From Pocillopora verrucosa (taxonomy: Eukaryota > Cnidaria > Anthozoa > Scleractinia > Pocilloporidae), in contig NC_089316.1 in assembly GCF_036669915.1 (NCBI RefSeq), forward strand, positions 21,262,554 to 21,326,553: a stretch of 64,000 bases of DNA, written 5' to 3'. The position numbers and the translations under genes are program-made. The notes under the pieces are model-generated. The model ran no database searches. It was not told the origin of the DNA and saw only the letters and a list, made by a program, of their open reading frames with translations. Shown here piece after piece: positions 18,235 to 61,985 of the stretch. How positions within the stretch are numbered: the first letter of the stretch is position 1; the number at the start of each line of letters is the position of its first letter.

Positions 18235-21200
18235 TTAGAAGTCACAGGCTCGCATTGTTTCCATTAGATCATGATATTCTTCGTCCTCTTTTGAGAATCC
18301 CGCCATAACCCTATCAAGCCGCTGAAAGAATTCATACCCTCTTTTCTCTAATTTCCGAAGATGAGAGTGAGCGACATCCTCTTGAAATCGAACTTTCTTC
18401 CTTTTTTTACCTTTGCAGTGTTCGTCATGGCTCATTCTTCCCAGTGTTTTCAAGAATTTGCTAATTCCATCGAAAAATGATTTTCCTCTTGAGTATTTCG
18501 GCTGTTTTTCTTCTGGTTCTTGGCCTGTTTTTCTCCTCAAAGCTTTGATGGCCTCACTGATTTGGTCAAAGTTGATTTTTGAACTCTTCTTAGAATCAAG
18601 GGTAATGCTTCTATCTACTGCTTTTTTCACTCCCGTGTTTGATGCTTGGGAGACTTTCAGTTGTCTCAGTCTACTGCTGACAGAATCGAAAAATGTGTTC
18701 CGTTCTTTTGAGCCTTTGCAACGAACCTCATCAACGAGCTCGTGCAACTCACTTTCGTTCGCGGTATCCTTTGCATCCAGAAGTGCATCGTTTATAACGC
18801 CGATAAAAAAGTTCATGCAGATAATTGTTAGGCTGAAAAGAATAGCAAAGACGAATATCTTAGCGTATGTGCTGTTTACCTCTGCTAATTCACTGATTGG
18901 TCTGGCTTTCACTCTTCCAAGAGTCAGTTCGAGTTGGAAATAAGCTGCTTTTAGCACTGAGGAGTAGCGCTCAGATCCAGTGCCAAACATCAATACACCG
19001 GCGTGAAGAAATGCCACGAAGAGAATCAATAGGACAATGCTAAAGGATGAAAGAGATTGTGCAGATATCGTCAATGCTTTGGAGAATACAGCAACATGTT
19101 TATTGAAGCGAATGACTCGCAAGAGTTTTGCAGTGACGATAAACATCAGGATTCCAAGTACAACATTTTCTGCTTCATGCCAAATGATAGCTTTTTTGAA
19201 ACTTATATTTGCATAACTGTTTTCTTTTAACCTTGCCCATGTTGAAGAGACTATGATTTGTCGTTTTATGTACAAAACCACGGCCAACACGGAGAAAACA
19301 ACCTGGAACATCTCCACCCAATTCCACAGGGACTGGAAATACCGGGAACGGTGATTGTAAAGCTTGAAGCATTCTCTTCCCAAAAACAGCAGAACGGATA
19401 CAGCGTATAGTAAAATGCAAATCAAATAGAACTGATATGAAGCTGTGTTTGTAGGATCAAGAGAAAGAATGTCAGTTTGTACCAAAGCTTCTTTGAGTCC
19501 TGATGCCTCAACTTCGTAAAAGTATGTGGCAACACCTAAAATATTCACCGACGGGTTAAACACGGAAAACTGTGCGAGAACCACCCGGGTTTGCCTGTCA
19601 AGCCAACCGTTGTTTTGCAAAGTGGTTACGGCTTTGAACCCCGTATGGTTCTTGTACCCGAGGTCTGCTACAAATCCTCCTCCACGATAAAATGAGAACT
19701 GTCCCCACTCTGACCCGCTATCACTTTCTTCCGCATTTTGATATCGCCATGGCTTCGGGCAAAGTCCAAATAAATCTTCGTCTCTTGTAGAGTTGTCGAC
19801 AAACCTCCAGCCCGGTTCATAGAAAGCGGTCTTGTCTTCGTTTGTTTCCGAATATCCTTCGTAACATTCCTGGAAAGTTGTCTTCATGTATTTTAACACG
19901 TTGCATGGTGCTGTAAGTTTAATAAAAAAAGGGACATTTATTAGAAAGTTTGTTTTGGAACTAATTCAATCTACAGGTATAGCACATCTCCCATATTCTT
20001 TATCTAGTAGGAAAATTTAGTTAATTAAAGTGCTCTGTGAGCAAACTTGTGAATTGACACATGATTTTTTTAGATTATGTTTAATGTTATCTGGTTTAGG
20101 GAATTTTGTGGTTGATTGTCATATCTAGAGTACGAGCAGTAGTTCAGTGTTCGCTAATGTAGCAAAGAAGCAAAGTAACGTTGGGATAAGAAGGCATTAC
20201 AATTGAAATGATCATGCTATTACATTTGACAAGGTGGATGATGTCATGTGTTTTGAACGTCTATCAATTTTTGTTTCTGGTTCAAAAGAAAAGGTTGGAA
20301 GTAAATGTGGGGAAAAGTAAAATTTACTGTCTTTCGTTGTAAATATTAGAAAATCAAAGCAATACTGTCTTAATGAAAACATTAACGATTCCCTCTTTAT
20401 CAAATGAGACAAACGGGAACGAGTTTTGAGTGATATAACTAAGCCGAGCCTGCCACCGTCATTTTGGATCTTTGCCTGGGTAGATTTGAGTCACGTGCTA
20501 GGCAACGTATAATCAATAACAAGATAGAATTTAATTTCAAGCCTATTTATCAATTTTGTGGTGTGTAACTTTCGCATTTTAGTACGTTGTATGTATGTTG
20601 AATCTTCAAATTGTCTTGAAAATTGTTCTTTAAAAATTCACTGAAAATCGGTAGCTAAAATTGTTTGTTTAGCTGTTATTTGATTTTCGTGTTAACTTGA
20701 TATTTCTTCAGACGCCGGCATCTTCTATTGCTTCACACAGGAAAAACACACGCAACGAAGCGTAATGATCATTTTTGTCCTCAATCTCATGCCATAACAG
20801 AAAAAGCTTTTGAACATCCGTAAACTCCGGGCGCTTCGCAGTAAGTGATATTCTCAATGAATCTTCGGATTGTTTTCAAGTTCAAGGATTGTAAATTGCA
20901 ATTTTATGAAAAACGAAGGTTGTTCTGTTATTTCAGTGTGAATCCTTGCATGCCTGCCAGTCGCTGGCGCCGCTTGTTGAAACTAAAACGAAAAAAAAAC
21001 TCTTTTAAGATTATCATTGGCTTCTTTTTCACCCCACCACTATTCTTAGCAACAAAGGTCGCCATTTCGTCTGTTTACTGCTCGCCAAAAACTATCAAAT
21101 ACACTCAAAAGCCTAAAATCTAAAAAAGTTTACAGGAATCGACCAATCGAGCGAGCGAATGCCATTCCCCACATCGTATCTATAACTCGCTCTTGCGCAT

Positions 21201-21575: not shown

Positions 21576-24500
21576 CTGAGTTCAATGAAAATTAATACGT
21601 TACTTACAATTTGTGACTACATCACCTTTCGTATCGCTTATTGTGGATATGATGCTTAAAAACAGACTAAATAAAAAGAAAATCAAGAACGGGAGATGTG
21701 TTGGTCGGATTTCACGGACTGGGATGGAGGCATGACTCGCTGGTGGATCAGGAACATTTAGAAACAGATAAGGGAGCCAAGCCATTATGATGCAAAGTCT
21801 TAGAAGAATTGATACAGATTCTAACCAAAAATCGAAATGTGATCATAACAGTTGTTCTATACACAACCAACGGACTTGAAAAGTAGCAATAATTCCCTAT
21901 AAAGAAAAGAGGTGTTTACGCTTTGGAGGATACGTTTATGTCGTGAAAATAGATTTCAAATAGGGTTTGGCAATCCAGAATCAATCGTTGGGTAATATCA
22001 GTCTTTTAACGATTTCTCCAAACACAATAAATGTTACTCACATTGTTAAAATTGGGCAGTCCATCTCGAATTGATCTGGTCATTAGGTAACGATGGTCAT
22101 TTCTGTTTCCATAGCACACTACCATTAACAAGAAAACGAAAACCAAGTAGATACCCAACTCTGTGAAGTAACGTGACAGGTTCTGTTTCTTGGCCTGGCG
22201 TTTCCTCATCTTTTCTACTTCCGATAATTTCAACGTCCACAGCCTTTGTTTTGAGCGACCACTTTCAACTTGATTACAGTCTTCACATGCAGGTACCGTT
22301 GATCTCTTCGCCTTCATCTTGATAATGGCCGCCAAAACTACAGCTGTAAAGAACACTTTAACTGGTTCCGTGATTGTGACATCTTGAGCAAAGGAGATAA
22401 GCATTGAGGACAGCCACTGCTCACTGACACTCTTTTCCCAAATCAGGCTATAGAAGATTGTAAACGTAGCAGAAATAGCACAAGAACCGAAAAAAAAGAA
22501 CCAGGCGATACTTTTGATTAGATTAGCTTTATAGCAAGGACTGTTGTTACTCGAGGACTTTTTGGATGCTTCTTTAAATAAAAGCACTATTAGTATGTTT
22601 ATTGGTGCCACAATGAGCGCGCTTTCAATACCAGTAACTACTTGTCTCCACGAGAATTCCAACGGTCCAACTTGAAAAGGTTGTTCATATCTGCCATGTA
22701 GCTCATAAAACATCGCGTTTGCAAACATGGATGTCAAAAGCACTGAAAGGCAGCACGAAACCCGCTGTACTCTTGAAAAGTGGCTTCTCTTTGGTTTGGC
22801 AGCGACTGAAACCCAAATATGTAGCTCTGTAAGCCCTCTCCGCCAGCGTCTTGCAACCTCACTGGCAAAGTCCATTTGAGATACTGTTGCTTGAAACATT
22901 CGCTCGATACGCCCGTCTCCGCGCTCAAGAGCAAACCACTGACTAACCATAAATTTCCAAGACTGATTGGATTGTACGTCCCGAATGAAAATTTCCTCCA
23001 AAAACCACGAAGGACTGTCACCAAAGTTGTTATGACCAATCTTCACTTCTTGAATCACACCAAGTGATTTGTTAACATACAGTACAAACACGGCCGAGTT
23101 ACCACGAGAGAAGAACGCGTCAATTGAACCAGTCTCTTCCTGGCTGAGCTGAAGAATGCCACTCCTTCCGTCAGAACCGTAAATCTCCATAGCAACTTGA
23201 GCTGTTGTGCCTGAGTATATCCAGACTCCTGTAGTTATTACTATCTTGTATTCATATGTACTCTCTGGAGAGGATGGCAAATGGACTGGTAAAACGTTCT
23301 TAAGAAAAATGATAATACCATTAATGAATCGGTGATTTATTCTTTTTTTTTTGCTTTTTCCCTTACTTAAAGAAAAAAAAAATATATATATATATGTATT
23401 GATGATATTAAAAAACTCGGAAACCTTAAATGATTCTAAGTGATTTCTTCCAGTTCGATGACCACTTTTTTCCAGGATACTTAGAAAAATATGAATCTGC
23501 AAGTTTTCAAAGCGTATTACGTGCTGCATAATTCAAAATGTGTTCAGAACTTACATTTTTAGAGTCTTCTATGTCTGTTTTCCTGACGATAACAAGCACA
23601 ATCACGTAACTTAAGAAAACCAACGCCATCGCCAAAATAACTGTGATATTTCCAGATTCTGGCAACTTTTGAATCTGCACTTGAACCTTGTCGAGGTCGA
23701 TAGGATTCGGTTTAACCAAAAGACTTCCCCCGAAGGATGTCAGGTGATCGCAGCTGCAGTTAATAAATCTGTTCGATGCTCCTAAAATCTGGAATTGTCC
23801 AGAGAGAAAATCACTGTTTCGGTTTTCAGTGCTAATGATGTGCCTTGTCCATTCAAAGGTATTCAAAGGTCGTGATTAGCTATGAGAATAATTATATTTT
23901 TAACGATGGAAGACTACACACGGGCTCGACAAGGTTTTGTCTTCGATTTTTAATTGCCAAATCAGCGAAGATGATCACAATGAAGCACTCATTTTTCCAC
24001 AATTACGTGAAACCCACGAATTCTCTGAAAAGTGTCTGAACTAATTCCACATTATAAAAATTATTCGATAATGTTAACACTTTACAGCAACTCACCCGAC
24101 AGCCTTTTGTTACCCACATCTCAACTTTCGCTGACCAGTATACACAGCTACCGAAGGCCACCCTCAGAGTGTAGTTCTGATCGGTTTTGGAATCATAAGC
24201 TGATGTCACAGATGCAGTTTTACTCATGGGTAGGGCAGGTGGGGGATCTTTGACTTCGACGCAAGACCGCTTTTGCCGTCCAGCGATAAAACACGATCTT
24301 TTCTTTCTCCTGTATGGGGTGGTCGTGGTGGCATTATAGTTTTTTACGCCTACAAAGTATTTCCCAGGATGCCTGGCCAATGTTGCTATCGGGGTAAGTG
24401 GGTTCGACGAGCATTCCGGTTGTCTCTCCTTTTTGTCATGCGCACTTGCAGTCCAAACGCACTGTCCATTTTGAGAGATTGTGGCATTGAGATCGTAGTT

Positions 24501-27500
24501 TTGAGTCGTTGGCCGTTGACCGAATCGCAAGTAAACAAACAGATGTACAGTTGGCTCTTGGGGTTTGACTTCTAGCTGCATCAAAGTGTTTTCGTAATTG
24601 ACATTTATCTCGTGGAAACGTAAATCGTCATCTGTCGTGAAGTACCATAGCTCCTTCGGTAGTGTCCGAGGTTTTGATGGAATAACGATGACAATGTCGT
24701 CTGGTAGACTTGATACTTCCAATAGCTCGCTTTTATTGTCCTTTAGGTCCAGAAATAGAACTTCAGAGTTGACTCGCTCCCTGGTGCTGTCCCAGGTGTA
24801 GGGGTTGAATGACATTGATAGCATCTGCAATAAGAATAAATCAAAACTTTTTGTTGACTTTAAGGAATTAAGGATTAAGAGACATGATAATTATCGCTAA
24901 CTGACCATAATTACGGAAGCCAAACGAGAAAAAGAGTTCAGGATGGCTAACAAAGACTGTACCTTCGAATGCGTTTGCTCTTGGGTTATCAGACTTTCCG
25001 AAGTCACTCACGACTGAATCGATTTTGACACGCGCTCGTTTCTTAATTTGATGTAATCCCTTACCTGGGTGTCGACAAAACTTGTTGTGTTTCTTCCTGT
25101 GACAGGCCATGGTGGTAAAATGAAACTGCCACTTCCACCCTTTATCTGCAGCCCTGCAAGTTTACTCAGGCTATGTCGCCCTAATGTCATGTTCAAGTGA
25201 CCGGTGGAGATCGATATCATGTTTTCATCTGGGACTCTCAGGGCTAACAATGCGTCTGCAACTTTTCTAAGCACTTTAAGGGCAGTATTAACAGATTTTT
25301 CACCCTGTAAAATGAAACAAAACATCACAAACAAACAAGTAAAAATAACAAAAAGAAGCAAAGCTAAACTGACGAAAAGATCTTAGCAAGGACAATTAAA
25401 AATTTTTTGACAACTTTAGCACATTAATTTGACAGTAGCACCAACCTGACACGCAATGTGTCAATTAAAAACGAGGGAAGCCGACTCAAGTGCAGCTTGA
25501 AGTTTCATATGTAACTAGATTTCGCTGTTAGACTACAACAGCCAATAAAATACCTGCTCTTGGAAGCTTAAGGTGGAATCTATTGACGCCATCTCTGCGG
25601 ATATCTTTAACACCCTTTGAAGACACCAAACTAAGTTTTCTGCCGATCGAGTGACTAACGACAAATCAGCAACGTCCTTCAACTGGACGGTTGACCATAA
25701 GAATTTCGTTTGCGAGTCGACAGCCGATAACGACAGTTCCTGAAAGTACATCATGCACAATCATGGAATTATTCTTTCGTAAGATTTGCTGCTCAGCACA
25801 ATACATTTCTATTTCTAAGAGTCAGGAGTTAGAGAGGAATCGTCGCCTCTAAACCAAGTTTGTTCAGGTTAAGGAATTTTAAAACGCACTTAAACTTCTT
25901 TCAAACATTTTTGCCTTTGCTTGATTAACTAAACCAAAACAACCATGACAGCGCTGAAGAACTCTGGCATATGAAAAAGCAGTCAAAAGTTTATATCATT
26001 TTGTCAATTATCGCAATTTCATATTCCTCTACATGTGTCTCATTCTTTCTAATAAACGTTCGATCTAATTTTACCTACCAATGACTCGGGAGAGACCTTT
26101 TCCAAAACGTGAAGAGCAGAACCAATCACGGAGGAGCTTTGAAGCAGGTCTGCAGTGTTGTTTACTTTCACTGACGCAATATTTTTTATCATAAAGTCTA
26201 TAACCTTGAAATGTAATGAAGTTCAAACGAATATATTAATGCAGGAGCCTTCTAACATGCGACTATACGACAGCACGGGTACAAAAATATAAACAACTAC
26301 ACGAATACTGGAATGCACGAGTACGCTACCACACGACTACATGAGTCCACGAATACATGAATAAATTAGTTCACATAAATACTATGTATTATTTGTATTC
26401 TACTCAGTGCAGTTGAATGATAAAATTCATTAGTACCACAATACATGAACACACGAATGCGTAAATAAGTGGATACGTAGAGATATCATTATGCAACTAC
26501 ACGAATAGTGCGTCCAAGAAGTATGAAAGCATTTGTAAATGCATTTACCTTGATTTTATCCTGAAAATTCATCTTAGTTTCTAGTCTAACAATTTGAAGG
26601 ACAGAGTTTGCTAATTGTGCCGCATTTCCCAAGTCTCCTTTACTGATGACTTCATGAAACAAACTGTCATTTGCCATCAAAAGGCTTGAAATTTCATCTG
26701 GTCTTAGACTCTCGGAGGGCTTAACCTATGGAAAGAGCATCAGTCACTATTTAGTGAGTTGCATGTTAAGAAAAATTTGCCTTTCAACCTCCGATGGGTA
26801 GCTGTCAAAAAAGGACAAAATTATGTCAACAAAATTTCCGATGTACATCAATATTACAGTACCTACCAACTAAACTTACCTGTACTGTTAGATTAACAGG
26901 AGAGGCAGAAATTCCGAAGTTATCAGTCACAACAACGTTGAGGCTTATGGTATAGTTTTCTGCATTGTTCCCAGGCAATATCCCAAGAGCAACTATGGAG
27001 TTGTTGACGCCATGATATAACACAGTGTACACACCGTTCTCTAGTCTATATTGAAACCGGTAGGACAGGGGGTTGCTGTCACTTGTCCAGTTGATACAGC
27101 TCAGATTAAAGTGTGATTCCAAGGAGATGCCGCTTGACGGAGTGATCGAGCATTTCCCCCTTGTGGGAGGTAACGCAATGGAAATGTCATAGGCTGACAT
27201 CGCCCATAAACCGTCGGTAGTTGTGATAAATAATGCCAAGCGGTACTTATTTCCAGGAGCAAGAGAACCTCCATTTATAACAATGTTGCTTGCATTTAGT
27301 GGTGTACTGGTAATGAGTTCTAAATTATGTTTTCTTTGCCAAGCAGTGAACGCGTTTCCCTCATATTGCTGGTAGAGTATCCACTCATATGAAGAAATTT
27401 TGAAGCACTGTAATCCCTGGCATTCTGATCGGACACTAAGTCGTACTGAGGGGCTGATTTTAGGCAGACAATTTATGAAACATCTAAAATGAAGGAAAGA

Positions 27501-30500
27501 ATGTTGATTACATAACGAGAATGCAGATCAATGCAGCGTAACGAGGGTCTTGCCTGTTGAGAACTATGGTGGTCATAGTTACTGCAACAGAGAACGAAAC
27601 ACAAAATACAGCGATATTTGAGGCATTCAAGACAAGGCATCGGAAACAAACAAGAGCAACAACAACAGCAATGGCAAAATCAACAACAAGAACTTCAACT
27701 GAAGCAGTAGCAACAATAAGAAAATAGGAAAATAAATAGGGATATCAGTCGCAACAAAAAGAACAAGCAACAGCCACAACGATAGCATCAACAACATGCC
27801 AACTCTCTTACCTTTGATATATTTTAGGGGGATCTCCTTTCGACAAATGGATGACTTGATAAGCGCTAGCATTGCGATAGTCTTTGGCCACAACCAGTCT
27901 AACTATGTAGATATCATTGAGAGACATAGCTTCTGTATCCAAGTAAATTCGCACGCCAGATGCTCTTCCATTATATTGAAAAGCTGACTCGTTTACCGCT
28001 ATAAAGAAATCTCTCTTTCTTCCCTGCACATAGGAGTAGTTCCCTGTGATCTCACCATAATGCCAAGTAAAGTTCATTCCCGATTGGTCACCATGTGCAG
28101 CCTCAGGGTCATATGAGAGTGAGCCATCCAATGTGATGTTTTCTTTGAGTCCTCGAATCACCTCAGCTCCGCCAGAAATGACTGCAACAAGGTCCTGCGT
28201 CTTAACTAAAAGCCGTTGTAACAAAAAGCAAAAGTTTGTTACTTTTTAAACTTAGCTTACTGTTAATCAGAATGGTTCTGCTTTGTCATCAGTGTGCCTC
28301 GACAAAGCTGAAGTAGCCATTGGAAGACACATTCAGATTGCTTTTCCAAATTTCTAACGAAACGTTTTTCTTTCGATTGGCATATAATAGTAAACAGAAC
28401 AGAGTTCCTAAGATTTCTGTCATGGAATCATCGTAACATATACATATACATATACCCGTTTATGTTCAGTTATGAAACTAGCCACAATAGCGTTTTTCAG
28501 AAACACGAATTAGACTACTGGATACTGTCTTTCCCACACTTTTAAGACAAAGCCCTCGCTACAGAAAAGGGTGACATGAAAGCTGAAAAGATGCCAAGTG
28601 AAATCGGAAAAAGCCTAACTTTTGGAAAATAGGCAACCTTGAGTTGTTGATGACGATAATGAAGTCGGTGATGGTAAAACTGTCATTGTTGTCGATACTG
28701 TCAATGTTGGTGGTCCTGTGTAGGTTGGTGATCCTGTGCATGTTGGTGATGTTGTGTATGTTGGTGATGCTTTCCATCTCGGTGATGCTGTCCATGTTGG
28801 TGATGCTGTGTAGGTTTGTGATGCTGTCCATGTTGGTGATGATACTGTTAATGATTCTTCTGATGACGAAAGGATGAAAACAAAAAAGAAATATAAACAT
28901 TTATCTAATTAGTTTGAAAAGCCTCCTCTCTTCTTTGAAGACAATACCATACACGTTTTTAATATGAATATGAGGCAATTAAAGTGAAGGTTAATAACAA
29001 CTAATTAGTATTATAAAGGAATGGCGTACATATTGTTCGAAGTAAAAGAAAACAACAAGGTCAACAAGGCTTAGCTAATGCCTTGACTAGCTTTCACAAA
29101 AGAAGGCTGAGAGCCAAAGAAAGAGGGCTAACTACGAACTCTCAGCTCGTTAGAACATACTGGTAGATAGGCAACCGCTCAAAGGAAAGCACTCGGCGAA
29201 CAGTGTTAAAAAAAACTGTGATAAAATAGCCGAATGAAGGAATGAGATTTCTGACCTTAGAGAGCTTATTTATACACTTGAAAATAAAAGCGATGGAATA
29301 CAATGTGTTCTCTGACCCTTAAAAAGCTATCTTTTACAACAGTGGAAGTAAAAAAAAAATAAACCATAAGACGCATAAAGCGTAGACACACTTTAAAATG
29401 TAGGCTTTTAGCCAAAGATAGGGAAATAAAGGGAAAATTCCTAAAAAAAAATTATCATACTATCAACTTTCTGACAGTCAAGTCAGCATGCTATCAAACT
29501 CATCCCAACATCCGGGACAATCGAATGTAAAATTAGACGACAACTCATGCGAGATTTTGAACAATTTGCAAGACGAATGCGCCTCTACGTCTTTCACGGA
29601 AAAAACAAAGAACCACACCCTAAGTCGATCGAAATGTCCGCCATATTTGAATTAGATGCAGCATGGTCATTTTATTATGTTCACTGCACATTTTGCATTG
29701 CATTGAAATTATCTCCTACAACTTTAAGGTTCAAACGATCGGATATTAAAATAGAATACAATAAACAAAAAATTGATTTCTCTATTCGAAGAACAACTAA
29801 GTCTGCAAGCCTTTTGTATTGATTTTATAAAGTAATAATTGGCACATATCTTAACTGACATGAGGCACTAGCTCTTCCCAAAATATAACGCACTTCACAT
29901 CATTACGCGTTATTATCTAACAAAGCAACTGGACCGATAATTCTTTGCTATTGGTATTCACCGTCATTTTATTCAATCGACAGGATAAATGAACAGCATG
30001 AAAATAACTGATGACTGAAAGTTTCACAACTGTTTTTACTCGTAATAGTGATAGTAACAGAACCATCTGTCACTTTCCTCTGCTTACATGGTTCAAAGTT
30101 AGACAAGTATTTAACAAAAACTTCACTGGGTTTGTTTCATTTATGCAAATTTTATTGTAAACTTGATCCTGATTGTCAGAGGGTTTATGTAAATTCTGTA
30201 GTAAGTATCACAAACTTTAGCAAAGAATGTTTTTATTACGCTTAAGCGCTTCTGGTACCTTTTAGGGTACTCGAAACAACATTAAAAACAACAACAACAA
30301 CGCCAAAAAATCAACTCACCCTTGGAAATCTCACAAATATAAGCGTGTTGGTTTCCCCAACGTGTATCATTAACACTACCAAACACGCCCCGCTCGCCAT
30401 TATTGTTCAGCTTGTACATGAAAGCCGCAACGTATTCACTACTTGGCTCCCCTTTTCCCCATTTACGAATAGTCAGAGGTCCTCCATTCACCCAGGTCCA

Positions 30501-31715: not shown

Positions 31716-31746
<31 letters not shown>

Positions 31747-42125: not shown

Positions 42126-45100
42126 CTGTGTCAAAAAAAGAGAAATTTAATGACAATATTGAGTTAGTTAACTGAGCCCATAAAATGATTGAGTAAGGCA
42201 AAAAAAATTTTATTACCTTTGTGCTACCGTCAAAGTCCATTAAGACGGCAAAATGCGTCAAATGATTGCAGCTACAAACTGTTTCTTCTGAGTTGCTTTT
42301 TGAAGTAACTACATGGCATCCTTCCTCTGAAAAGCTGTCAGACATGAAAAAAGTAAAGGTAAAAAATTATTCATCGTTTGGGTAAGAGGTGATGCTTGAC
42401 AATTGACAATTTTGCGCTACGATTTTCTCCCATTGTAGTCATAGTTGCGAGAACATTTCAATCAGACTTCCCTTCTCTAAAAACGACAACATATTGGCTT
42501 CCAGGAAAGTGTTAATCTGCGCAAAAACAACTGAGAAAGTTTATTCATTCTCCTCGATATTTAATTTAATTTAAGAAGGAATAAATACTATACAATAATG
42601 TATTGTTGTTTTTTACCTTTTGCTGAGGCCACTCCAAAACATACAGCGCTTCTCTGCTGTCAAGACCTGAAAATGGATTTTATCTTGTCAGAAAAAATCA
42701 AAACAACGCATTGCAACTAATTTTCATGTTACCTTTAGGTTTTTGAACTTAAGGATGACATTTTCTCGCAGTTTCCTTGCCTTGGGGTCCATAGTTACGG
42801 CCATTATCCTGGAGTTAATATACCTATGAAGAAATTGTATTTGAAAATGGCTCAGAAGCAAGGAAGCAACATTACATACTTTTGATAGATTCAAGCGAAT
42901 TTTAATGAAGGTGGAACGGTCAGAGACAAGCAGGGAGTCTTCCAACCTTAGTTAGGGTTTTTGGAAAGTCTCTAAGTTCAGGTTAGTTGAACTTAGATCT
43001 TATGTGTTTCCGAGTTATGTGTTTTTGGGGGTAAACGACATGGAATAATATGAAAATAACGTCACCTTTGGTTGTCTGTTTCATTCCAGACGGTTTGATC
43101 TGTCAGAAGTAGATCATGGAGATCATTGTACATAGTCGCAACTACCAGTGATCCTTAAAACCCCCCAAGAATCAACAAAAAAAGTTATTAAACAACATTA
43201 TAAGTAGGGCGAATGATTAAAGAAGATAGACTATGTAAACTAAGGAGGCGCATTTATATGAGACTTTATTTCAATACAGAAATTTCGATAGGAGAAACCA
43301 AGGTAATTACTAAAAGTTGCACACCACAATAGTTAATACGAACCATTTTGCTCAAAATTTGAGGAAGCGATATTGATCCTCGCTTGCCATTGTTGTTCCT
43401 CAAAGTGGAAGCCTCTTGCGTTCTGGCGATAGGCTTTTTGAATGACCAAAACTGTCGGAAAAAAAAGAAGAAATGAAAGCAGTTACGGCGCAATTTACAA
43501 TAGCACATCTACACAAACATGCGTTTTGCGGTATACACAAATATTTAATAATCTTATTGGATGGACGTGTATTTTTTGTATCTCATTTGCCCTTCAAGGA
43601 CTATTCGACGATTTCAACCATTTATAAAACGTTTCTAAATGTAAAACTGATGAAAAAGTGAGAAGTACTGTACGGACTAAAATTGTCAAAACTCAATTCG
43701 TTCCTCGAACCGTCTCTTTGGAGAACTATAGAGTTCCCTGGGGAGTTTTTACAAGTCCGGTTAAAAATCTTGCATTTATATGCATCGCACACGATAGGCC
43801 AATTTTGAGCCCAGTGTATAGTATGAAGTATGCGGAAAGTATTTGTTAGATTTCTCAATTTCAGTAAGTAAAGTGTGACCAATCTATTATTTAAGAAAAG
43901 TTTCCAATAACTGAGCAAGAGAAAGGTTTCACAATTTGAAGGATTCCGATTCTCAATTGTTGATTGTTTAAGAATACCTTGAATTTCCTTCTCCACCGCG
44001 AGAAATCAGTGTCGAACAAATTAAAAAAAACAGATAAATCGATGACATCCAACAACAACGTTTCTAGAAAGTTGGGTTTATAACTGAGTTCTTAAATCAT
44101 CTAGCTATAGGGAATAAGACAACTCATTAGGTCACTTAGCAAGTCAGTAAGTAGCAAAGGAATAGACTTTGAAACTAAACAGAATTGAGTGCCACGGCCT
44201 CACCCATTTTTGGGGAAACGATCCTTTCTGAAGGCTTCATTCCACTCTGGTGTCGCTTGCTATAATTAAGAGCAAATTTCTCGACGGCCTCTGCCACCTC
44301 AAAAATGGATTTTCTCAGTGTTTTAACCTCTTCCTTGCCTGCCTTGTCTTTTGTGATATTTTTTATTTTTAAGGTGAAATCTTCAAACACAGTAACCGCC
44401 TCCTACAATTACATAAAATATTTCCATGTCATTGACAAGCCAGTCTCACATATACAATTCATATTAAAGATATGGCAAAAGTCCAGCAGGAGGCTCCAAA
44501 TGGTGTTCAGGGTATTCATTTGCTAAAGAACTATTTTAGGGGCCTCACCATTCTCACCTCATATAGCTTGATTGGTGGTTTATTCTTGAAGGTTATATAT
44601 TTATAGGTTATTTCACGGTTGGTGAGCGCGTGCGATTTTCACACAAAGATTAAATAAAAATCGCACAAGCGAACTAACCGTCAAATAACTTAATCATTAT
44701 ATACATACCGAAATTCATGGGCGAACAGAACTCAAAGATAAACTTATTTTTATTTTCTTTCCAAGGAAAACAACGCGCGTCAAGCCGCCTCGCAGTTCGA
44801 GAGTTGCACTGAAATGGCTTCCTTGTAAAATACTGTGCATTTAAATCATCAAGCAAAAATGCCGTTAGAAGGCAGAACTAGTTAGAATTAAACAAGAAAT
44901 TCTGGAGGTATGTCGAAATAGTTCTACGGAAGTTTAAAATTTGAAATACAGAAGCGAAAACTCGAGACTCGCTCCACCTTTCAAAACAAGAAATTCGTGG
45001 AACAGAGCAACATCGTGTTCTGTCTTTTTCTTGGTGTTTTCGTTTTCCTGTCCTTCTGTGAACTCTTCTACTGATGAATTTAGGCTGAAAACGTTTTGTC

Positions 45101-48100
45101 TGATTTGAAGCCATCTTTCTAAAGAAAAATCCGCCTAAGCTCTTAGAATGTGTTATTTGTCAGTCAAGAAGAACGGCGAGCAAGCAACACAGATATCTTC
45201 ACTGGTGAAAATCGATACGTCGTTTTTCACTGGTGAAAAAAATCGTAGGACCAATGAGCTGGCTTCTCTGACGTGAAGAGACTATTTTTATCTCGATGCT
45301 TTTTGGCGCTTAAATCTCGGTATGCATGTAATAATTACTTTTTATCGTTTATCTATCAAAGTTAAAAAGCCTTTAAGTTACGAAAATTGGATACCTGTAT
45401 GGAACCCTTTCTGGTAATATTTATTCCGCATAATTTTGAAACATACTCCTTTGCCTAGAATTAAAAAAAACATGTGTGTCACAGAGAAGATCCTGAAAAG
45501 TGACATGCATAAAAATGGTAAATGACTATTTAGAAAACATACCAGCTGCGATGGCGATGGAGATGGCGATGGCGAGGTTGAGGCCGTTGACGAGAGCGAG
45601 GGCGAGGGCGAGGGCGAGGGCGAGGGCGAGGGCGAGGGCGAGGGCGAGGGCGAGGGCGAGGGCGAGGGCGAGGGCGAGGGCGAGGGCGAGGGCGAGGGCG
45701 AGGGCGAGGGCGAGGGCGAGGGCGAGGGCGAGGGCGAGGGCGAGGGCGAGGGCGAGGGCGAGGGCGAGGGCGAGGGCGAGGGCGAGGGCGATGGTGACGA
45801 CGATGGCGATGGCGAGGGCGATGTAGAAATTGATGAATCTTTAAAGAAAAATAAACATCAAGACCATATCATAAGAAAAAATTGCATAAGCATCACACTT
45901 TGAGGGCAAAGTGAACGATCGGAACTCTTAAATGCACTCGTTGGTTAAACAGAACACTCTTATTATTTCCTTTCTACTATTTTAGTCGTTCGCACACTCC
46001 TTCTGTGATTGATGCCCAGATGAAGCTTTGGGATGTTTTTCGATAACTAGACGTTAAAATACTAGAGAATGATATATTTCCTTTAGAGTTTTCCCTAGTA
46101 GGTGAAAAAGCTTTAAGATAAATTTTAATAGCCTGTTCGTGTTTTCTTGTTTGAATTCTATTCCACCAATCGAATTCCATTTTGCCTCATTACACTTTTC
46201 TCCATCGCGTGTTATTCCCTTGTAGACAACCCGCGTTTTATCACGTATTGGAACCACATTACCCAACATTCCATCGTAAGGGCAAAAAAGCGGACGGAAA
46301 GCGGAGTAACAAAATGGCCGCTATGAACGATCAAAACTCTTAAATCCACTCGGTTGGTTATATAGAACACTCTCATTATTTCCTTTGCATTATTTTCGTC
46401 TTTTGCACACTTATGATATGATCGATGCTCGGATAGAGCTATAAGATGTGTTTCGAAAATACTAGTAAATGAAATAATAGTGCAATAATACATCCCTTAA
46501 TCACTGGTTTAACAGATAAGACAAGTACACATTTTGCCCAGTTTTTGTCATTTCAACTCGCTCCTACGAGGCTCGGAAAATGCCACACAAGTCGCAAAAT
46601 ATCCGCGCGTATTAATTGTTAAACCACTGAATACCACGTATTCATTTCTTATTTTATCTTGAGCTGTCTCCTGTTATCATTTTGTAGTTTTGCTTTTCTG
46701 AGAGCGGGAGAACGGGTCATTTGTTGTACTTTAGACATATTTTACACAATTACAGAGACTAACTCTTTTTACCATATTGTTGCGTGCAAGGTGGTCCAAC
46801 GTAGTCTTGGTAAGAGTCCTGCAAAAAGTTTTGTCCAGGAGCTGGATCTGCTGAAAAAATAATACAAATACAATACAGAGGAATTAATGAATCCAAAAAG
46901 TAAACAAATTGTTTCGTTCTGAGCAGCACTACCATAGCAGCACTACCATTCAAGTTAAGCGCTGCTTTGCGCCTGCACCGGAAATAATTTTTTTTCGCAA
47001 TTTTTATCATAAAAAAGTAATTATGTTTCTGTGTAGAATGATGTGTTGCTCGCACTAATCTGATCGCCGCATAAGGGTATTTATTTCGCAGCAATCAGAC
47101 TGTCGCTTTTTTAGTATGTATCTCACAATAATCAGATTGCCGCATTAGGGTATATATCTCGCACCAATTACGTCATAGCAGTTGGATATCTCACAGCGAT
47201 TGAGTATTGTTTTCTCGTAAATGATGTCATGGAATCTGGGGGCCGTGCATAAAGAATTACATAAACCAGAAATTTTGGACTCATTTGATAAGTGAAATGG
47301 TTTGTGGCCTTGGTAAGAGCCTCGTCGACTGAGGTCGAGATTTATCGGGATATGAAAGGTTTGTATTTAACTTGTTGCATCATTTTTAAGTTTAAAGGTG
47401 TTTTACCTGCTCCTTTTCTCACAACACTCACGCCAAACAACTTACTTCCGTCGCATATTACGTAAACAACAGTCAACCACTCCCAATCATTAGACTGCAG
47501 TTTTACAGGTGCTTGAATTGTTTTCCACCGATCAGATTCCATCACCAACGCGCTTCGTCTCTCTGACGAGGAATAGAGGGCGTTGTGTGGCGAGACCAAA
47601 CAACAGTTGCGAAGGAGACAACGTTAAGCGTGGCACTGATGCATTTTACTTTTGCTTAGAGGCTTTTTACACACTACCTGAATGAGTTCAGAGAAACTAG
47701 GCATGGTTTTGCTTTTTGTAGTAAAATTATGTGGAATTACATTTTGCAGGCAACTAACTGGAAATAAGCAATGTTAATTTTCTCCCTGTCAAAGGTACTG
47801 CAGTAAGCGTAGTCTCTTTGGTCTCGTCACGCAACGCGCTTTCTACCCAAGGAGGACTAGAGTGCGATGTATGACGAGACCAAGCAACAGCTGCGAAGGA
47901 GACAACAGTAGACGTCTATGCCTTTTATTTTTGCTTATGGGTTTTTAAACAATAGAGACAAAAGACCACAAAATACTTGTGTGAGCTCAGATAAATTAGT
48001 TTTTTTTTCCCTAGGGTGAGGTAATGCGATACTTTCGTCACTTTAAAAGTTCTTCTCTTTCTCTGTTACAAAACTAATAGCGTTAGGAACACAAAGTGTC

Positions 48101-51100
48101 CCATCTCAACCCTCTAGCCAAAATAATAACTCTTGCATGCTACGCATATCTGTGTTTATCTTTTGGTAAACAGAATATCAATTAAATTCCAACTCAGTAT
48201 TCAGTATTTTTTAAACAAGAAAATGTATCTACACCCTCTGGTGACATATGAGAACTGAGGTAACCCTTACTAACCTTGTTACAGAGTAATAGTTGCCAGG
48301 TCAATCGAAATGCTCGCCATATTCGAATTAGAAGCAGTATGGCCAGTTTATGTTTACCGCACATTTTGCATTGCATTAAAATTAGCCCCTACAGCTTTAC
48401 AGTTCAAACGGTCGGATATTAAAATATCATACAATTAACATAAAATTGATTCCCCTATGCGAAGAACAAACAAGTCTGCATGTCTTTTGTATTTATTTTA
48501 TAAGACGATAATTTGCATGTATCTTAACTGACATGAGTCACTAGCTGAAGATAACGCACTTCACAACGTCCCGCATTTTTATCTAACAAAACAATTGGAC
48601 TGATGATTTTTTGCGATTGGTATTCACCATCATTTCATTAAATCGAAAGGATAAATAAACCGCATGAAAAGAACTGATGATTGAAAGTTTCATAGTTGTT
48701 GTTACTCGTAATAGCGATAGTAACTTTTCTTTGCTCACAGGGTTAAAAGTTAGACATGTAGATCATGAAAACGTCTACTTAGATTGTGTAAAACATATTT
48801 TCATTTATGCAAAGGTAAGTTTAAACTTAATCCTGACTGTCAGAGGATTTTATGTAAATTCTGTCGTGAGTATCACAAACGTTAGCAAAGAATGTTATTA
48901 TTACGCTGAAGCGCTTGTGGTACCTTTCAGTTAAAAAAACAAACAAACAAACAAACAAACGAAAAGACAAAAAAAAAGCCAAAAACTTACCATTTGCAAT
49001 CTCACAAATATAAGCGTGTCCCTGACGTAAACGATTAATACTACCAAACGCGCCTTGTTCGCCATTACTGTTCAGCTTGTACATGAAAGTCGCGTTGTGT
49101 TCACCTCTTGGCTCCCCTTTTCCCCATTTGCAAATAGTCAGCGGTCTTCCACTCACCCAGGTCCAATTCTCGGCCCTTTTTTCTAAACCAATACTCCATC
49201 TATTGTCGTAGTTCGTATTATTTCGCCTTTGAATCTCGTTATCAATGAAATTCCATTCTTCCTCGGTTTCGATGGAAATTAGGTCCCCTCCTCGGCTTTT
49301 GCAGATGACTCTGTTCCAGCTCCAGGACCATCCAGATACCGAAATGATGTACCAAGAGTTTTTAAAAGTTATTTTTGGGCATTCTACAAAATGATAAAGA
49401 TGAAAAAAATTATCATAAAGATGATAAACAAACTGATTATTATGACAACTGTAAACGAATGTAAATATATAAAAGTCGTATCGTGCGGATAAAGACGTGA
49501 ATATAAAAGCGATCTTCGCAGTAATGAACACTAATGAGCAGTAGTGAAAATAAGGCCTGAAAAATTCAGGCCTGTATGGGATTTGCTCCCATGACCACTA
49601 TGATACCGGCGCAGCGCTTCCAACACGCTTTTTTCTGACAACCTTTCTCGAAAGAACTGTATTTATTATTTGCTTTTTTCAGAGGACACAGTAACAAATC
49701 TTGCAATCGTATTGTTTCTTTATGCGCTCTGTATTTTCCTATCTCTGCCCACGGCACAGTATCGCTTGCATAAGTCGTCGAGTACATCTTCAGCTTTGTT
49801 GCCATTTTCATAAATTTTATTTCGTTTTGCCGGCTGGGCAGTATTTTAAGCAAATCATTTCAAAGCAAATCAAGCGCATTGATAATGTATTAATTCCTTC
49901 TTTCTCTCTCTCCAATCCATTTGGTTGCCAACACAAAAAAATGTTTTTGAAATTAATTTTGGTAGCAAATATGTCATTTAATGGGTTGACACGCAGCCTA
50001 AAAACCGTTCGTAATAAACGAAAACCTTCACTCGAAGTAACTCAGAAACTTAAAAGATGAGGTATTAGTTTACAACTGAATTCATCAATAGAACTTTCAT
50101 TCATTTTACATCTGAATAAAAATAAAAATAAAAAATACTTAGATGCGTGATGTCCAAAAAAACATGCATACACTCACTGACCTCAGTAAACACGCCTTGT
50201 AACTTATGGCAAGGAAAAATTCCGTTGGCTAGATTGTAATAACCGCAGCACGCTGGACTAAAGTTGTGAAACGTACAATTTCGATCGCTGTTTTCCAGCT
50301 GTAGTCGATACACAATTTCGATCGCTGTTTTTCCAGCTGCAAGCGATCATGCAAAATAAGGAAAATTCTAGAGTGATCAAATTATTTTTTTGAAACATGT
50401 GTCCCGGAAATTTTCATGAGCATTATGCTCAACTATTAATACGCGCCTAAAAGTTCATTCATCGCTTACACGTAAAAGTTAGGGGAGCTAAGTTGTGTGA
50501 GCAACATTTTTACTTCTAAGAAACAAGAGAAATTTTCATGACACTGTTGCAAGACTATAATGTTTTAGTACATAATATACTTTATGGTTAAAGTGTGATC
50601 TTACCTCCCCGCATCTCGCAAATGCATTTATTTTTATCATACCGAGAAATACTGTTAAAGAGGCCACCATTCTTGGATATTTCCGCCCTTTTTTCGTTAG
50701 CATCTGACTCAGAAACTTGCCATTTCGAAATGTTCAGTTGTTCTCCACTCAGCCAAGTCCAAACCCCGCCTTTCTTCTCTAAACCAATGTGCAACGCACC
50801 AGTAATCCAAGTGGCACGTTTTTGAATCTCACGATTTATAAACTGCCATTCTTCTTCAGTTTCGATTGAGACTAAGTCACCTCCCTGACCGGAGCAGATA
50901 TGTCTGTTTTTATCCCAAACTCTTTCCCATTTCGAAAAGATGTAAGAGGATTTTTTGAAACAGGTTACTTGGCACTCTATGGGAAGAAAATAAAGGAATA
51001 AATAAATAAATGAAAGAATGTATAATGATGATAACAATAATGCTGATACGAATGTAAAAGCAATCCTAGCAGTTATGAACGGTTACATGCGGAATTTGAA

Positions 51101-53552
51101 CCCATGATCTCTCCGATACCAGTACAGCCTATGCCAACTGAGCTAACAAGCCAACTGGGAGCTAGTTTTATTTTTCAGGCCTTACATTCACTACTACTTA
51201 AGTAGTGTTCATAACTGCGTGCATCGCTTCCATGTTCCTTTCTTCAACCGCAGTGCATATACATGATTTTCATATATTTACAGTCATGTAATAATGCTGG
51301 TGATGGATACGAGAAAGTGTTTTTTTATACAATAAATTTTAATAACATACGATGAGCATCAAAACCCTCTACGTAACTGAAGCAAAAATTAGAACTAGGC
51401 AAGGTTTTAAAAGTGGAAATAAGAGTGATCAGGGTAATGGCACCGTTATTCTTGGACTTTTTTGTTTTGCTCTCCAACTTACGTTTTAAATCACAAAGTC
51501 TGTGACTAGTTATCAGCGAAATCAGTCAGATATTGTCTTTTTTCCGTTCATTTTAAGGTACATAAATGTTAAAATTGGAATTACACTGTCCTACCTGTGC
51601 CTGGCAAATCCATCAACAAATGAAAGATGACTGTAGAAGAGAAAATGAGCATATAAATTGATTGTTATCTTAAGAATAACATTTGAAACAATGAAAAAGG
51701 TTATTAGATTTCGAGTTAGACTAGTACTAATGCATTTATTTGCTATATGCCCTGTAACATCTACCCATGATTTTTATTTCCTTCCTCTGGGAGCAGACTG
51801 AGAAATTTAAATAACCAGCTATACAAAACTTGTTACACGAGGGAAACATTTTTAAGGATACAGTCGACCCTCGCGAACGTCCTTCGGACAAAATTTTTAA
51901 ACGGGTTATTCGGAGTGCAACTAAACTATAAAACGATGAAAAAAAATGTTTCGCTCTAGCTCGCAACAATTCGATATTTCGTTAAGCGAATTAATCAGGT
52001 ATCAAATCTTACCGCTCAATTAAAACTCCTGCACAGTTTGAATCTTGAGGGGTTGGTCTCCAAAATTTTGTGAGGATTTTCCCATATTCATGGTGTTACT
52101 AAACTATGGATCAGCAGACCGTGGAACCTACGGAACCTATTTTTTTAATTAATTTTTTTTGTAAAAGCAATGAGATAAGTATAGGGTTTGCTTTCGGGTA
52201 CAAAGAAGAATAATTTAAAAGAGAAATGTGTTTTAATTGTCCATAGCGTCCAACTTGACGAGCAGTCAGCAGTGTTAATAACTCAACAATAGTTTGAAAG
52301 CTCTAACGGTTTGGGTACCGCGATATTTGAATAGCGCCTTATCCGAAGGCTCTCAGTAAGGCTTAAGGCTGGAATTCTTTGTACATGACCCTGGTATGAG
52401 GAACATGAGCCGCAAAGTATCATCGTCCGTGATGCTCGTATAATTTCGGGGTGATCCATTAAACATTATGAATAAGAGGACTTTATTAAAAGCCAAAGAC
52501 AGAATTCTCAGAATAAAGCTTAAAAAAAAAAAGAATCTCCATGTGGCTGTAAGGAGTTCCATTGTTGAATGTTAAAACATGGAAACTGTTGAATTTTAAG
52601 AGTTGTTTAACACCTGCGTCACTTTAACACCTCAGCTCGCTCAGAAAATCAGATATCGACGAGAAAGGAAAAACTAAACCAATTCAACCATTTTTTGCCA
52701 AACCCCGGATCGAATGTTAAAATCTAATACCATTTTATGCGGACCCTGATGATTAAGTTCGATCTTTTGTCTAAGTGCGTCGAACGTTCAGCAGCTATCT
52801 GAAGACGAGACGTATTTCCCTTTTTAACATCTTGTCGTAGTGGCATAAAACTATAGCAACTAAGCTATTGTGTTCCTGTTATCCTAAATATGGCTGCCAA
52901 AGCTGTTGTGCAGATAACCATGACGCAAATAACATGACCACCGCATGAATGTCTCGCCTGTGCTATTTGATCTTTAGTTACTTTAGGTTTCAAGAATTCG
53001 ATTTATAAGATAGCCTTCTCTAATTAAGAATTATGAGTTTAAGAGTATGTTTTGTTTTGTTTTGTTTTAATTAACAGTGTCAAACAACCGCCACCTCTCA
53101 GTTTCGTTTGGCTGAATTTCACAAATGGAAAGTCAAGATATAATTAAGGTGGTACTTACCTAGCGTACAACTTATTAAAAAAAAATTTGCACACTTTGCC
53201 GGTTTAGTTGTACTCATCACACAATACAATCATTTGGCATTATACGGAAGGCGATTAATATCGAGAAACTAATAATAATGATAATACAATGATCCCAAAG
53301 TTTTGCTTTAATGATAAACAAATAGTTTGGAAAGGAGATTTGTAGAGTTTTTTAGTATGTTTCGTTATTATAGTTCCTTAAGTTTAAATTGGAAATAAAT
53401 ATTTCACGAATTGGAAAGTCAGTTTCGAAGATTTCGTAGCTAGAGCAGAACAAACAGGAATAACTAGCGTCGTACTTACCCAGCACACAACATATTAAAA
53501 GGGTTTTGAAAATTTTGCCGGATTCAGCTCCATCTATCATCCACCTCATCAT
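39405..53552 (-). CDS. Adhesion GPCR with two C-type lectin domains and a Ser-Pro stalk (intact model)
   Basis: Predicted cell-surface receptor. Exons in transcription order: 53552-53480, 50976-50605, optional 50336-50178, 49383-48991, 47562-47407, 46850-46773, 45838-45543, 45454-45395, 44402-44204, 44063-43978, 43451-43340, 43153-43066, 42823-42733, 42666-42617, 42334-42217, 42125-42022, 41856-41754, 41645-41495, 41379-41298, 41143-41077, 40376-40288, 40113-39993, 39726-39685, 39569-39405. Every junction has AG and GT borders and matching phase, and no stop occurs before TAA at 39405. That gives about 1,031 residues, or 1,084 with the optional exon. Order: leader, CTLD, CTLD, linker, Ser-Pro stalk, GAIN, GPS, 7TM, 54-residue tail. 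The 7TM resembles the latrophilin-like class (TM3 [11 protein letters not shown]6 [13 protein letters not shown]). The leader and CTLD exons lie in duplicated unit C and the GAIN-7TM exons in unit B. Ligand is unknown. Least certain are the leader and the exons at 50.2 and 47.4 kb. Confidence 0.8.
42217..42334 (-). CDS. GPS cleavage-site exon of the adhesion GPCR
   Basis: Encodes [20 protein letters not shown] followed by [14 protein letters not shown]. This is the classical GPCR proteolysis site: two Cys pairs, and His-Leu followed by Thr where self-cleavage occurs in this family. The new N-terminus THFAVLM closely matches the tethered agonist of adhesion GPCRs. Cleavage and self-activation are therefore expected; this is inferred from the family. 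The exon is missing from unit C. Confidence 0.9.
42617..45454 (-). CDS. GAIN-domain exons of the adhesion GPCR
   Basis: Seven small exons (60, 199, 86, 112, 88, 91 and 50 bases) with matching phases encode the domain that folds around the cleavage site. Recognisable pieces are an amphipathic helical segment ([20 protein letters not shown]), [35 protein letters not shown], and the first GPS cysteine with its tryptophan ([12 protein letters not shown]). The exon at 43978-44063 has a modest acceptor and is the weakest of the set. Unit C carries frameshifted copies of the 199- and 86-base exons. Confidence 0.75.
44607..44689. mobile_element. Short palindromic MITE-like element in a GPCR intron
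   Basis: The two arms of about 33 bases, starting GTTATTTCACGGTTGGTGAG and, reversed, GTTATTTGACGGTTAGTTCG, enclose about 15 bases. It lies in a segment (44.60-45.34 kb) that is missing from unit C. Confidence 0.6.
45543..45838 (-). CDS. Ser-Pro stalk exon built from a coding hexanucleotide repeat
   Basis: The exon has acceptor TTTCTTTAAAG, donor GTATGT, 296 bases and phases 1 to 0. On the minus strand it reads Asp-Ser-Ser-Ile-Ser-Thr, then about 40 Ser-Pro dipeptides with a few variants, then [11 protein letters not shown]. The next exon is phase 0, so the repeat stays in frame with the GAIN exons. Such stretches form extended, often O-glycosylated stalks; here it would hold the lectin domains away from the membrane. 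The homologous exon in unit C (59943-60013) has only a handful of Ser-Pro units and an in-frame stop. Confidence 0.75.
45596..45791. repeat. Perfect hexanucleotide repeat (GGCGAG)n, about 33 copies
   Basis: Uninterrupted over about 196 bases. On the minus strand it reads TCG-CCC codons (Ser-Pro) inside a GPCR exon. The six-base unit means length changes never shift frame. Confidence 0.95.
45898..46500. repeat. Local tandem duplication in a GPCR intron
   Basis: 45898-46110 and 46280-46490 are diverged copies, sharing AACTCTTAAAT(G/C)CACTCG, CACTCT(T/C)ATTATTTCCTTT and the TAAATGAAATAAT-like end. The second copy also resembles 60.08-60.32 kb. Confidence 0.6.
46773..46850 (-). CDS. Mini-exon, acidic Pro/Gln linker of the adhesion GPCR
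   Basis: A 78-base phase 1-1 exon lies behind the acceptor TATTTTTTCAG and before a GTAAAA donor. It encodes 26 residues ([20 protein letters not shown], then PCTQQY) joining the lectin part to the Ser-Pro stalk. The last split codon joins to give Asp-Ser-Ser, the start of the stalk exon. It has no known domain. Confidence 0.6.
47407..47562 (-). CDS. Probable linker exon of the adhesion GPCR, unknown fold
   Basis: A 156-base open segment lies between acceptor ATTCCTCGTCAG and a GTAAAA donor. It is phase 1-1 and encodes 52 residues, with a core reading [20 protein letters not shown]. It lies exactly where an exon could join CTLD 2 to the mini-exon at 46.8 kb, and phase is kept on both sides. 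I recognise no family. The stretch is missing from units A and C, so no copy is available in the window for comparison. Confidence 0.5.
47577..47970. repeat. Local short duplication
   Basis: The block GACCAA(A/G)CAACAG(T/C)TGCGAAG followed by GAGACAAC occurs at about 47605 and again at about 47880, each followed by a similar TTTTGCTTA stretch. Confidence 0.55.
48991..49383 (-). CDS. C-type lectin domain exon, second of the adhesion GPCR
   Basis: A 393-base phase 1-1 exon encodes 131 residues. It begins [20 protein letters not shown], followed by [23 protein letters not shown], a W-x-W strand and the final HAYICE. The long-loop EPN position reads EPR, and the WNDxxC segment with its partner cysteine is missing, so one of the usual two disulfides is absent. 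Homologues are 30320-30718 (polycystin gene) and the frameshifted 1241-1631. Acceptor TTTGTAG and donor GTAAGT are good. Confidence 0.85.
49500..49622 (-). mobile_element. Truncated copy of the same SINE at a deletion breakpoint
   Basis: Carries the second half of the tRNA-like part (GCGCTGCGCCGGTATCATAG on the minus strand) and the tail, but the A-box half is gone. It abuts sequence that in units A and B lies about 0.7 kb further on. Confidence 0.6.
50178..50336 (-). CDS. Possible cysteine-rich exon between the two lectin exons
   Basis: A stop-free 159-base segment lies between acceptor TTGCAG and donor GTGAGT and is phase 1-1, so it fits exactly between the two phase-1 CTLD exons. It encodes 53 residues with five cysteines ([19 protein letters not shown] is its core). 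I do not recognise the domain. Its first 31 bases are a tandem copy of the next 31, which supplies the in-phase acceptor. The homologous stretch near 32.95-33.07 kb has two stops in the matching frame, and in unit A it is deleted. It may be a real added exon or a relic. Confidence 0.4.
50605..50976 (-). CDS. C-type lectin domain exon, first of the adhesion GPCR
   Basis: A single 372-base exon, phase 1-1, encodes a whole CTLD of 124 residues. It starts [16 protein letters not shown] and has the hallmarks [16 protein letters not shown], a HIGLEKK core strand in place of WIGL, a W-x-W loop and a terminal CICE in place of YICE. The sugar-binding EPN position reads ESD and there is no WND motif, so classical calcium-dependent sugar binding is unlikely. 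Paralogous exons lie at 33713-34084 and 3942-4325. Acceptor CCCATAG and donor GTAAGA are clear. Confidence 0.85.
51048..51289 (-). mobile_element. tRNA-derived SINE-like insertion (unit C)
   Basis: Same element at the same place as in unit B, with flanks AATAATGCTG at 51036 and 51290. The tRNA-like part (about 51095-51155) is more decayed, with a B box close to GGTTCAAATTCC. Confidence 0.75.
53480..53552 (-). CDS. Exon 1 of the adhesion GPCR (start codon and leader)
   Basis: Two adjacent ATGs (53552 and 53549) open a short frame that ends in a basic-then-hydrophobic stretch, [13 protein letters not shown], at a strong GTAAGT donor. It leaves phase 1, as the CTLD exon requires, so the join reads VLG-ECQVTC. 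The same exon with an ATG recurs at 36925 and, shortened, at 6058. The hydrophobic core is short for a signal peptide, so a further upstream exon cannot be excluded. Confidence 0.55.

Positions 53553-61948: not shown

Positions 61949-61955
<7 letters not shown>

Positions 61956-61985
<30 letters not shown>

Follow-up and report, generated by a model that had tools for sequence, protein, structure and literature searches.

Introduction

Polycystin-1 proteins and adhesion GPCRs have a GAIN/GPS cleavage module in common, in which the cleavage site is HL followed by T or S (PMC9672506), and tandem duplication of receptor genes is common in corals (PMC10236652); here and below, statements from the literature reflect the accessible parts of the papers cited. 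C-type lectin domains are known in front of both receptor types. Sea urchin SpREJ1-3 combine them with REJ, and SpREJ3 additionally has 11 transmembrane segments; the lectin domains of sea urchin REJ proteins are reported to be under positive selection and probably to matter for gamete recognition (PMC1934368). Human polycystin-1 and PKD1L2 likewise have a C-type lectin, a GPS within GAIN, PLAT and 11 transmembrane segments (PMC1934368, PMC9672506). The accessible text of these papers describes neither an adhesion GPCR with the lectin front of SpREJ1-3 (PMC1934368) nor a front shared between human polycystin-1 or PKD1L2 and a GPCR (PMC1934368, PMC9672506). Among GPCRs, an N-terminal C-type lectin has been called unique to amphioxus, where adhesion GPCRs carry it (PMC2246102). 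The polycystin-1-like protein of Nematostella has a REJ and PLAT body, but WSC and no identifiable C-type lectin, as far as its description extends (PMC8846589).

Here, we describe a locus of the coral Pocillopora verrucosa at which a polycystin-1-like channel and an adhesion GPCR carry homologous fronts, each consisting of a leader and two C-type lectin-like domains (CTLD1 and CTLD2). Unlike human polycystin-1 and PKD1L2, the coral channel genes place two lectin exons at the extreme front, encode their stalk by repeats and occur in many tandem copies. Compared with the amphioxus GPCRs (PMC2246102, accessible text), the coral genes are cnidarian, their lectins stand in tandem, and the front is common with a channel. 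The parts are thus known, namely lectin polycystins and lectin adhesion GPCRs (PMC1934368 and PMC2246102, in the parts accessible), whereas their sharing and exchange of a front are new to us. The first-pass annotation knew of no described pair of this sort, and we also found none with a front common to both families in the literature searched, which consisted mostly of papers outside subscription.

Results

The window, the 64,000-nucleotide stretch analysed here, is C5:21262554-21326553 of the 353-Mb genome, and all of its features lie on the minus strand. The hand-built polycystin gene P1 has 15 exons from 36925 to 18235, with GT-AG introns throughout, and encodes 2284 aa with a sole, terminal stop. 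Its order is leader, two C-type lectin-like exons, Thr/Ser linker, REJ, GPS, PLAT and channel:

36856..36925, minus strand, P1 leader exon with ATG, ending in phase 1
33713..34084, minus strand, P1 CTLD1 exon, phase 1-1
30320..30718, minus strand, P1 CTLD2 exon, phase 1-1
29214..29624, minus strand, junction zone in the intron after CTLD2; GPCR A homology ends at 29624
28638..28859, minus strand, P1 Thr/Ser-rich linker exon, phase 1-1, of 18-bp repeats, with a weak donor; may be skipped
26880..28205, minus strand, P1 REJ exons (28205-27812 and 27483-26880; Pfam)
24096..26725, minus strand, P1 exons 7-11, the interval from REJ to GPS
23555..23788, minus strand, P1 GPS exon with the HLT tripeptide (Pfam)
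22042..23298, minus strand, P1 PLAT and transmembrane exon (Pfam)
18235..21575, minus strand, P1 polycystin domain and channel exons (21575-21407 and 19910-18235), with the stop (Pfam)

The adhesion GPCR gene, GPCR A, extends over 21 exons between 53552 and 39405, also with GT-AG introns, and encodes 949 aa with one terminal stop, in the order leader, two lectin exons, Ser-Pro linker, GAIN, GPS and 7TM:

53480..53552, minus strand, GPCR A leader exon
50605..50976, minus strand, GPCR A CTLD1 exon
48991..49383, minus strand, GPCR A CTLD2 exon
46773..46850, minus strand, GPCR A small exon, phase 1-1, whose in-frame omission is possible
45543..45838, minus strand, GPCR A Ser-Pro linker exon, made of 6-bp repeats
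42217..45454, minus strand, GPCR A GAIN and GPS exons (GAIN from 45454; GPS 42334-42217; Pfam)
39405..42125, minus strand, GPCR A 7TM exons and C-terminus (Pfam)

The polycystin-1 layout of the one gene and the GAIN-GPS-7TM layout of the other, both proposed in the first-pass annotation, were borne out by Pfam domains that all exceeded their cut-offs. In P1, REJ (236.5 bits, profile positions 50-451 of 452), GPS (37.4), PLAT (52.7), Polycystin_dom (116.4) and PKD_channel (126) follow the order expected of the polycystin-1/REJ family, and the best solved-structure match was polycystin-1 (6a70_B, E 9.1e-52). Its GPS exon (23788-23555) has the motif CSCDHLTSF, with HL followed by T. A frameshift suspected ahead of this exon was dismissed: coral homologues place the true acceptor 91 bases further in, which leaves the gene intact and raises the GPS score from 18.2 bits to the above value (cut-off 22.5). 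GPCR A has the domains of an adhesion GPCR, with GPS at 45.5 bits, 7tm_2 at 155.7 bits and GAIN at 26.6 bits, which barely passes its cut-off of 26.5; its GPS keeps HLT, and the stalk after the HL site reads THFAVLM. In both genes, short tandem repeats encode the stalk. The Ser-Pro stalk of GPCR A is encoded by 45.7 copies of a 6-bp repeat (45548-45821), and its length may vary between individuals.

Two repeat-like elements were seen in P1. About 1 kb of its last large intron (20066-21080) has an 86% inverted match roughly 41 kb off in the left flank and is probably a mobile repeat. Just upstream of CTLD1, a tRNA-like stretch (34260-34200), similar to a piece ahead of GPCR A CTLD1, is perhaps a tRNA-derived repeat; ARAGORN called no tRNA there.

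The blocks of leader, CTLD1 and CTLD2 in the two genes had been proposed to be paralogous copies with alignable introns. They do align, introns included, in three segments: 33687-36499 with 50579-53218 (74% over 2903 columns), 36598-37496 with 53228-54120 (81%), and 29624-30787 with 48300-49443 (79%). The bit scores, 834 to 1884, exclude chance. The lectin exons are 81-83% identical, and each protein has two Lectin_C stretches (Pfam; whole-protein scores 73.3 for P1 and 65.4 for GPCR A, cut-off 22.6). The front closes in phase 1, which is also the starting phase of both linkers and of the first REJ exon (REJ1), so either machine can take the cassette with no shift of frame. The view that homologous fronts precede two different GPS machines thus holds up, with fitting phases, open frames and a layout also seen in further copies and in certain gene models from other Pocillopora.

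The window evidently sits inside a tandem array. Exon-by-exon comparison over C5:21092554-21366553 and C5:20962554-21012553 identified P1-P4, four close copies of the polycystin, and a series of GPCR copies, some of which reach into the window:

8453..10637, minus strand, GPCR 3' remnant behind P1, starting with TM3; GPCR A homology picks up at 10669, within the intron between TM2 and TM3
1242..6080, minus strand, GPCR C front: leader, CTLD1 (4325-3942) and CTLD2 (1631-1242, with a broken frame); closely resembles the front of P3
56120..59845, minus strand, GPCR D, incomplete and degenerate; exons G3 to TM1 not found

The first-pass annotation mentions none of these three elements, nor the two linker exons of P1 and GPCR A. 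The same comparison detected GPCR 3' remnants from TM3 onward behind P2 as well as P1, and from IC3 onward behind P3; behind P4 it found no GPCR remnant exon, and within the window it found no lectin exon for GPCR D. Beyond GPCR D, pieces of 61113-64000 match both flanks at 74-92%. Elsewhere in the array, one GPCR copy (L024, G000:C5:21200682-21194390) has a doubled lectin block, in the order partial CTLD1, CTLD2, small exon, and then CTLD1, CTLD2, small exon, the second CTLD1 being broken. E2 has a broken CTLD1, and the CTLD2 of E1 holds a stop.

Among the polycystins, P2 is open throughout (2284 aa), P3 is open from CTLD1 on, and P4 is degenerate. P2 (G000:C5:21179963-21143074; loci L014, L015, L016 and L022) contains 26 linker and 26 REJ1 pieces in units of about 1.38 kb. 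All of the 22 linker pieces read are open, and a splice donor follows only the last of the 22 REJ1 pieces read. We rejected a giant form of P2 carrying 25 additional linker-REJ1 modules, as 16 of these 22 REJ1 pieces hold a stop in the frame tried.

CTLD1 and CTLD2 lay upstream, in the same order and on the same strand, in all six polycystin copies examined (P1-P6), out of at least 19 places with a channel exon at 59% identity or more. P5 (C5:23.6 Mb) and P6 (C5:12.5 Mb) are megabases away and have the lectin pair, with no GPCR exon match at E <= 0.01 in the 20 kb searched at each (about 5 kb of that of P5 being N). In P6, a Ser-Pro linker stands in phase, and its donor reads GTAAGT.

Among automatic gene models, P0001 of P. 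damicornis and P0002 of P. meandrina both join CTLD2 to REJ; P0002 also seems to read through intron. The REJ1 of P0001 is 95.4% identical to that of P4, versus 76-81% to those of P1-P3, and P0001 pairs with P4 in the CTLD2 tree. GPCR models with lectins are P0007 (P. verrucosa) and P0008 (P. meandrina, an automatic model that looks merged). Gene-model searches (about 645 to 3997 aa, in part among the best word-sharing candidates only) returned no P. verrucosa model with lectins and polycystin. Nor did the gene models retrieved include one at least 90% identical to GPCR A (best, 87%), and model P0011, which is 100% identical to GPCR F over 471 aa, starts inside GAIN, without a lectin front.

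Related layouts occur in other corals. Oculina patagonica P0003, P0004 and P0019 have similar REJ and PLAT bodies (54-59% where aligned), with the channel in P0004 and P0019, but their fronts differ or are absent: P0019 has a laminin-G-like front, and P0004 and P0019 have a Cys-rich module. In Stylophora pistillata, a related lectin domain is joined to GAIN-GPS-7TM in P0012 and to the start of GAIN in P0017; unlike the tandem pair here, these have one lectin domain and a Cys-rich stretch. Additionally, Stylophora P0006 is a polycystin fused to GAIN-7TM exons of the family of GPCR A, with no lectin in the polycystin model. It probably represents two neighbouring genes merged by annotation, which would place a polycystin and a GPCR side by side in Stylophora as well.

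Discussion

The first-pass annotation attributed the shared fronts to one tandem duplication of one pair. Its core, shared fronts on two machines, stands, but a single event does not account for the much closer pairings of P3 to GPCR C and, as far as CTLD1, of P1 to GPCR F. These are closer than P1 and GPCR A, indicating that fronts were exchanged more than once. At CTLD1, DNA identity was 95.8% for P3-C, 94.6% for P1-F, 93.3% for P1-P2 and 80.6% for P3-P1; at CTLD2 it was 95.4% for P3-C, 94.0% for P1-P2, 86.5% for P1-F and 82.2% for P3-P1. The P3 and GPCR C fronts were 93.4% identical over 7726 columns, upstream intergenic DNA included, and those of P1 and GPCR F were 92.8% identical over 7550 columns, extending beyond CTLD1.

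Scanning P3 in 500-bp segments, we found 91-96% identity to GPCR C in 12 segments, which run from intergenic DNA past the leader and CTLD1 into CTLD2, and 87% in the segment that follows, whereas identity to P1 in those front segments was only 69-84%. Three segments without a match to P1 or C follow (two of them match GPCRs F and A at 78-84%), and the last segment before the body is 76% identical to P1. In the body, P3 and P1 were 84-99% identical in 19 of 20 segments and at least 90% identical in 14 of the 20, one having no match; none of the GPCRs tested (C, F and A) matched the P3 body segments. Likewise, P1 and GPCR F were 88-96% identical in 14 of the 15 segments up to CTLD2 (80% in the other) and 82% identical in the CTLD2 segment, a drop that points to an exchange breakpoint before or within CTLD2. 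The silent distance between P1 and P3 was 0.36-0.39 in the lectins versus 0.03-0.13 in four body exons. CTLD1 trees of nine sequences, constrained to hold the polycystin fronts together, to follow the order of the bodies, or to hold P1, P2 and P3 together, were all rejected (p-AU 4e-12 to 3.4e-5, at a cost of 154-184 log units). Identity, silent distance, constrained trees and the segment scan thus all set the history of the fronts in conflict with that of the bodies, indicating that fronts have been exchanged between polycystins and GPCRs. Fast protein change in the lectins does not explain their divergence, as introns and silent sites differ as well; CTLD1 dN/dS among P1, P2 and F was 0.76-1.23, values that come from 4-5 silent changes per pair and do not establish diversifying selection.

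Bodies and fronts would also differ in history if the fronts had stayed put and gene conversion had made the polycystin bodies alike, and the high, tract-like identity of those bodies fits such conversion. We nevertheless consider this unlikely, since the P3 front and its upstream intergenic DNA match a GPCR unit over 7.7 kb, which indicates recent common ancestry of the P3 front and flank with a GPCR neighbour; moreover, conversion of the bodies would end in the same outcome, near-identical fronts on two machines. The array is highly repetitive, P2 contains repeats and there are gaps elsewhere, so the mosaics might be thought to be assembly or haplotype errors joining different copies. This we regard as very improbable: the P4-like pairing of CTLD2 with REJ recurs in the independent P. 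damicornis model, the P. meandrina model makes the same join, and the frames of P1-P3 are open across the joints.

Another reading is that the lectin exons make separate secreted lectins and that the polycystin starts at a first exon of its own, for example at an ATG before the Thr/Ser linker. In P3 and P4, an in-frame ATG and a hydrophobic stretch do lie ahead of the linker exon and could form a private start, but the hydrophobic stretch doubles as the pyrimidine tract of the linker acceptor, and P1 and P2 have no in-frame ATG before the linker. The splice scores of the linker donor (0.0) and the REJ1 acceptor (−0.6) are weak, as is that of one acceptor of GPCR A (−0.1); skipping the linker keeps the frame in P1. 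The leaders look weak as signal peptides by eye. The lectin-free start of P0011 would suit separate lectins. A strict scan from CTLD2 to the next REJ1 for ATG exons carrying a GTRAG phase-1 donor gave 0 in each of P1-P4 (in P2, it covered the stretch up to the first REJ1 piece only). A loose scan that accepted any GT as donor gave 11, 7, 18 and 7 hydrophobic ATG candidates in P1, P2, P3 and P4, respectively, with poor donors, and P6 has one short GTAAG start candidate within its linker. Conversely, both lectin exons are open and have splice sites in P1-P4, P0001 and P0002 join CTLD2 to REJ, and the lectin pair also precedes P5 and P6, near which (20 kb each) no GPCR exon was matched. On balance, separate lectins seem improbable, and we retain the reading in which the lectin exons belong to the polycystin.

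As for direction, the first-pass annotation held that it could not be told. Within the array, the polycystin body occupies the place of the missing GPCR middle. In P1, the alignment with GPCR A breaks off at 29624, within the intron that follows CTLD2, and picks up again at 10669, within the intron between TM2 and TM3; high identity to P4 starts at 29546 and to P3 at 29214. The simplest reading is that, in this array, the polycystin body landed in what had been a GPCR unit, downstream of that unit's lectin front. We do not extend this to a clean first origin from GPCR to polycystin, as the fronts of P5 and P6 are old, the lectin tree is weak at its deep nodes, and no GPCR remnant exon was found behind P4.

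We think it probable, on sequence grounds, that this is a tandem array in which two receptor types have a common, exchangeable leader-CTLD1-CTLD2 cassette, reshuffled by recombination or conversion. Exon order, phases, open frames, homology and mosaic identity are observed, and from these we infer the rest of the mechanism. In one type, the cassette would lead through a Ser-Pro stalk into a GAIN-GPS-7TM adhesion GPCR; in the other, it would lead through a Thr/Ser stalk, or directly, into a REJ-GPS-PLAT-polycystin channel, the lectin exons presumably being spliced to REJ in the cell. Unequal recombination or conversion, with switch points before or after CTLD2, would change which front sits on which machine. 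Cleavage at the HL/T site, with a tethered stalk retained, is predicted for both proteins, and a ligand on the lectin pair would then elicit G-protein signalling through the GPCR and cation flux through the polycystin.

The best solved match of P1 CTLD1 was CD23 (E 2.6e-10). Calcium-dependent sugar-binding C-type lectins carry the motifs EPN or QPD, and WND. By eye, P1 CTLD1 has EPG and LFN where CD23 has EPT and RWN, and thus departs there from the residues usual for calcium and sugar; we do not class it with these lectins, and consider a ligand that is a protein or an unusual glycan just as probable as a plain sugar. We propose contact recognition with GPS-dependent signalling as the putative role; use in gametes, in self/non-self or in microbe recognition is a guess. 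More tentatively, the array could be a variable recognition system, in which fast-changing fronts are reshuffled between channel and G-protein receptor outputs, so that either pathway is tried and one ligand may fire both; we see this as a possibility rather than as our expectation.

For both receptor families, how ligand binding leads to a signal is still argued. Natural swap pairs are P3 and GPCR C, for which the intact relative P0007 could stand in, and P1 and GPCR F. In each, near-identical bait is placed on a channel and on a G-protein receptor, and the pairs could test the ectodomain as an exchangeable ligand or force sensor. The locus is also a tangible example of recombination in a tandem array carrying an ectodomain from one receptor superfamily to another, and one and the same bait may thereby be coupled to different alarms.
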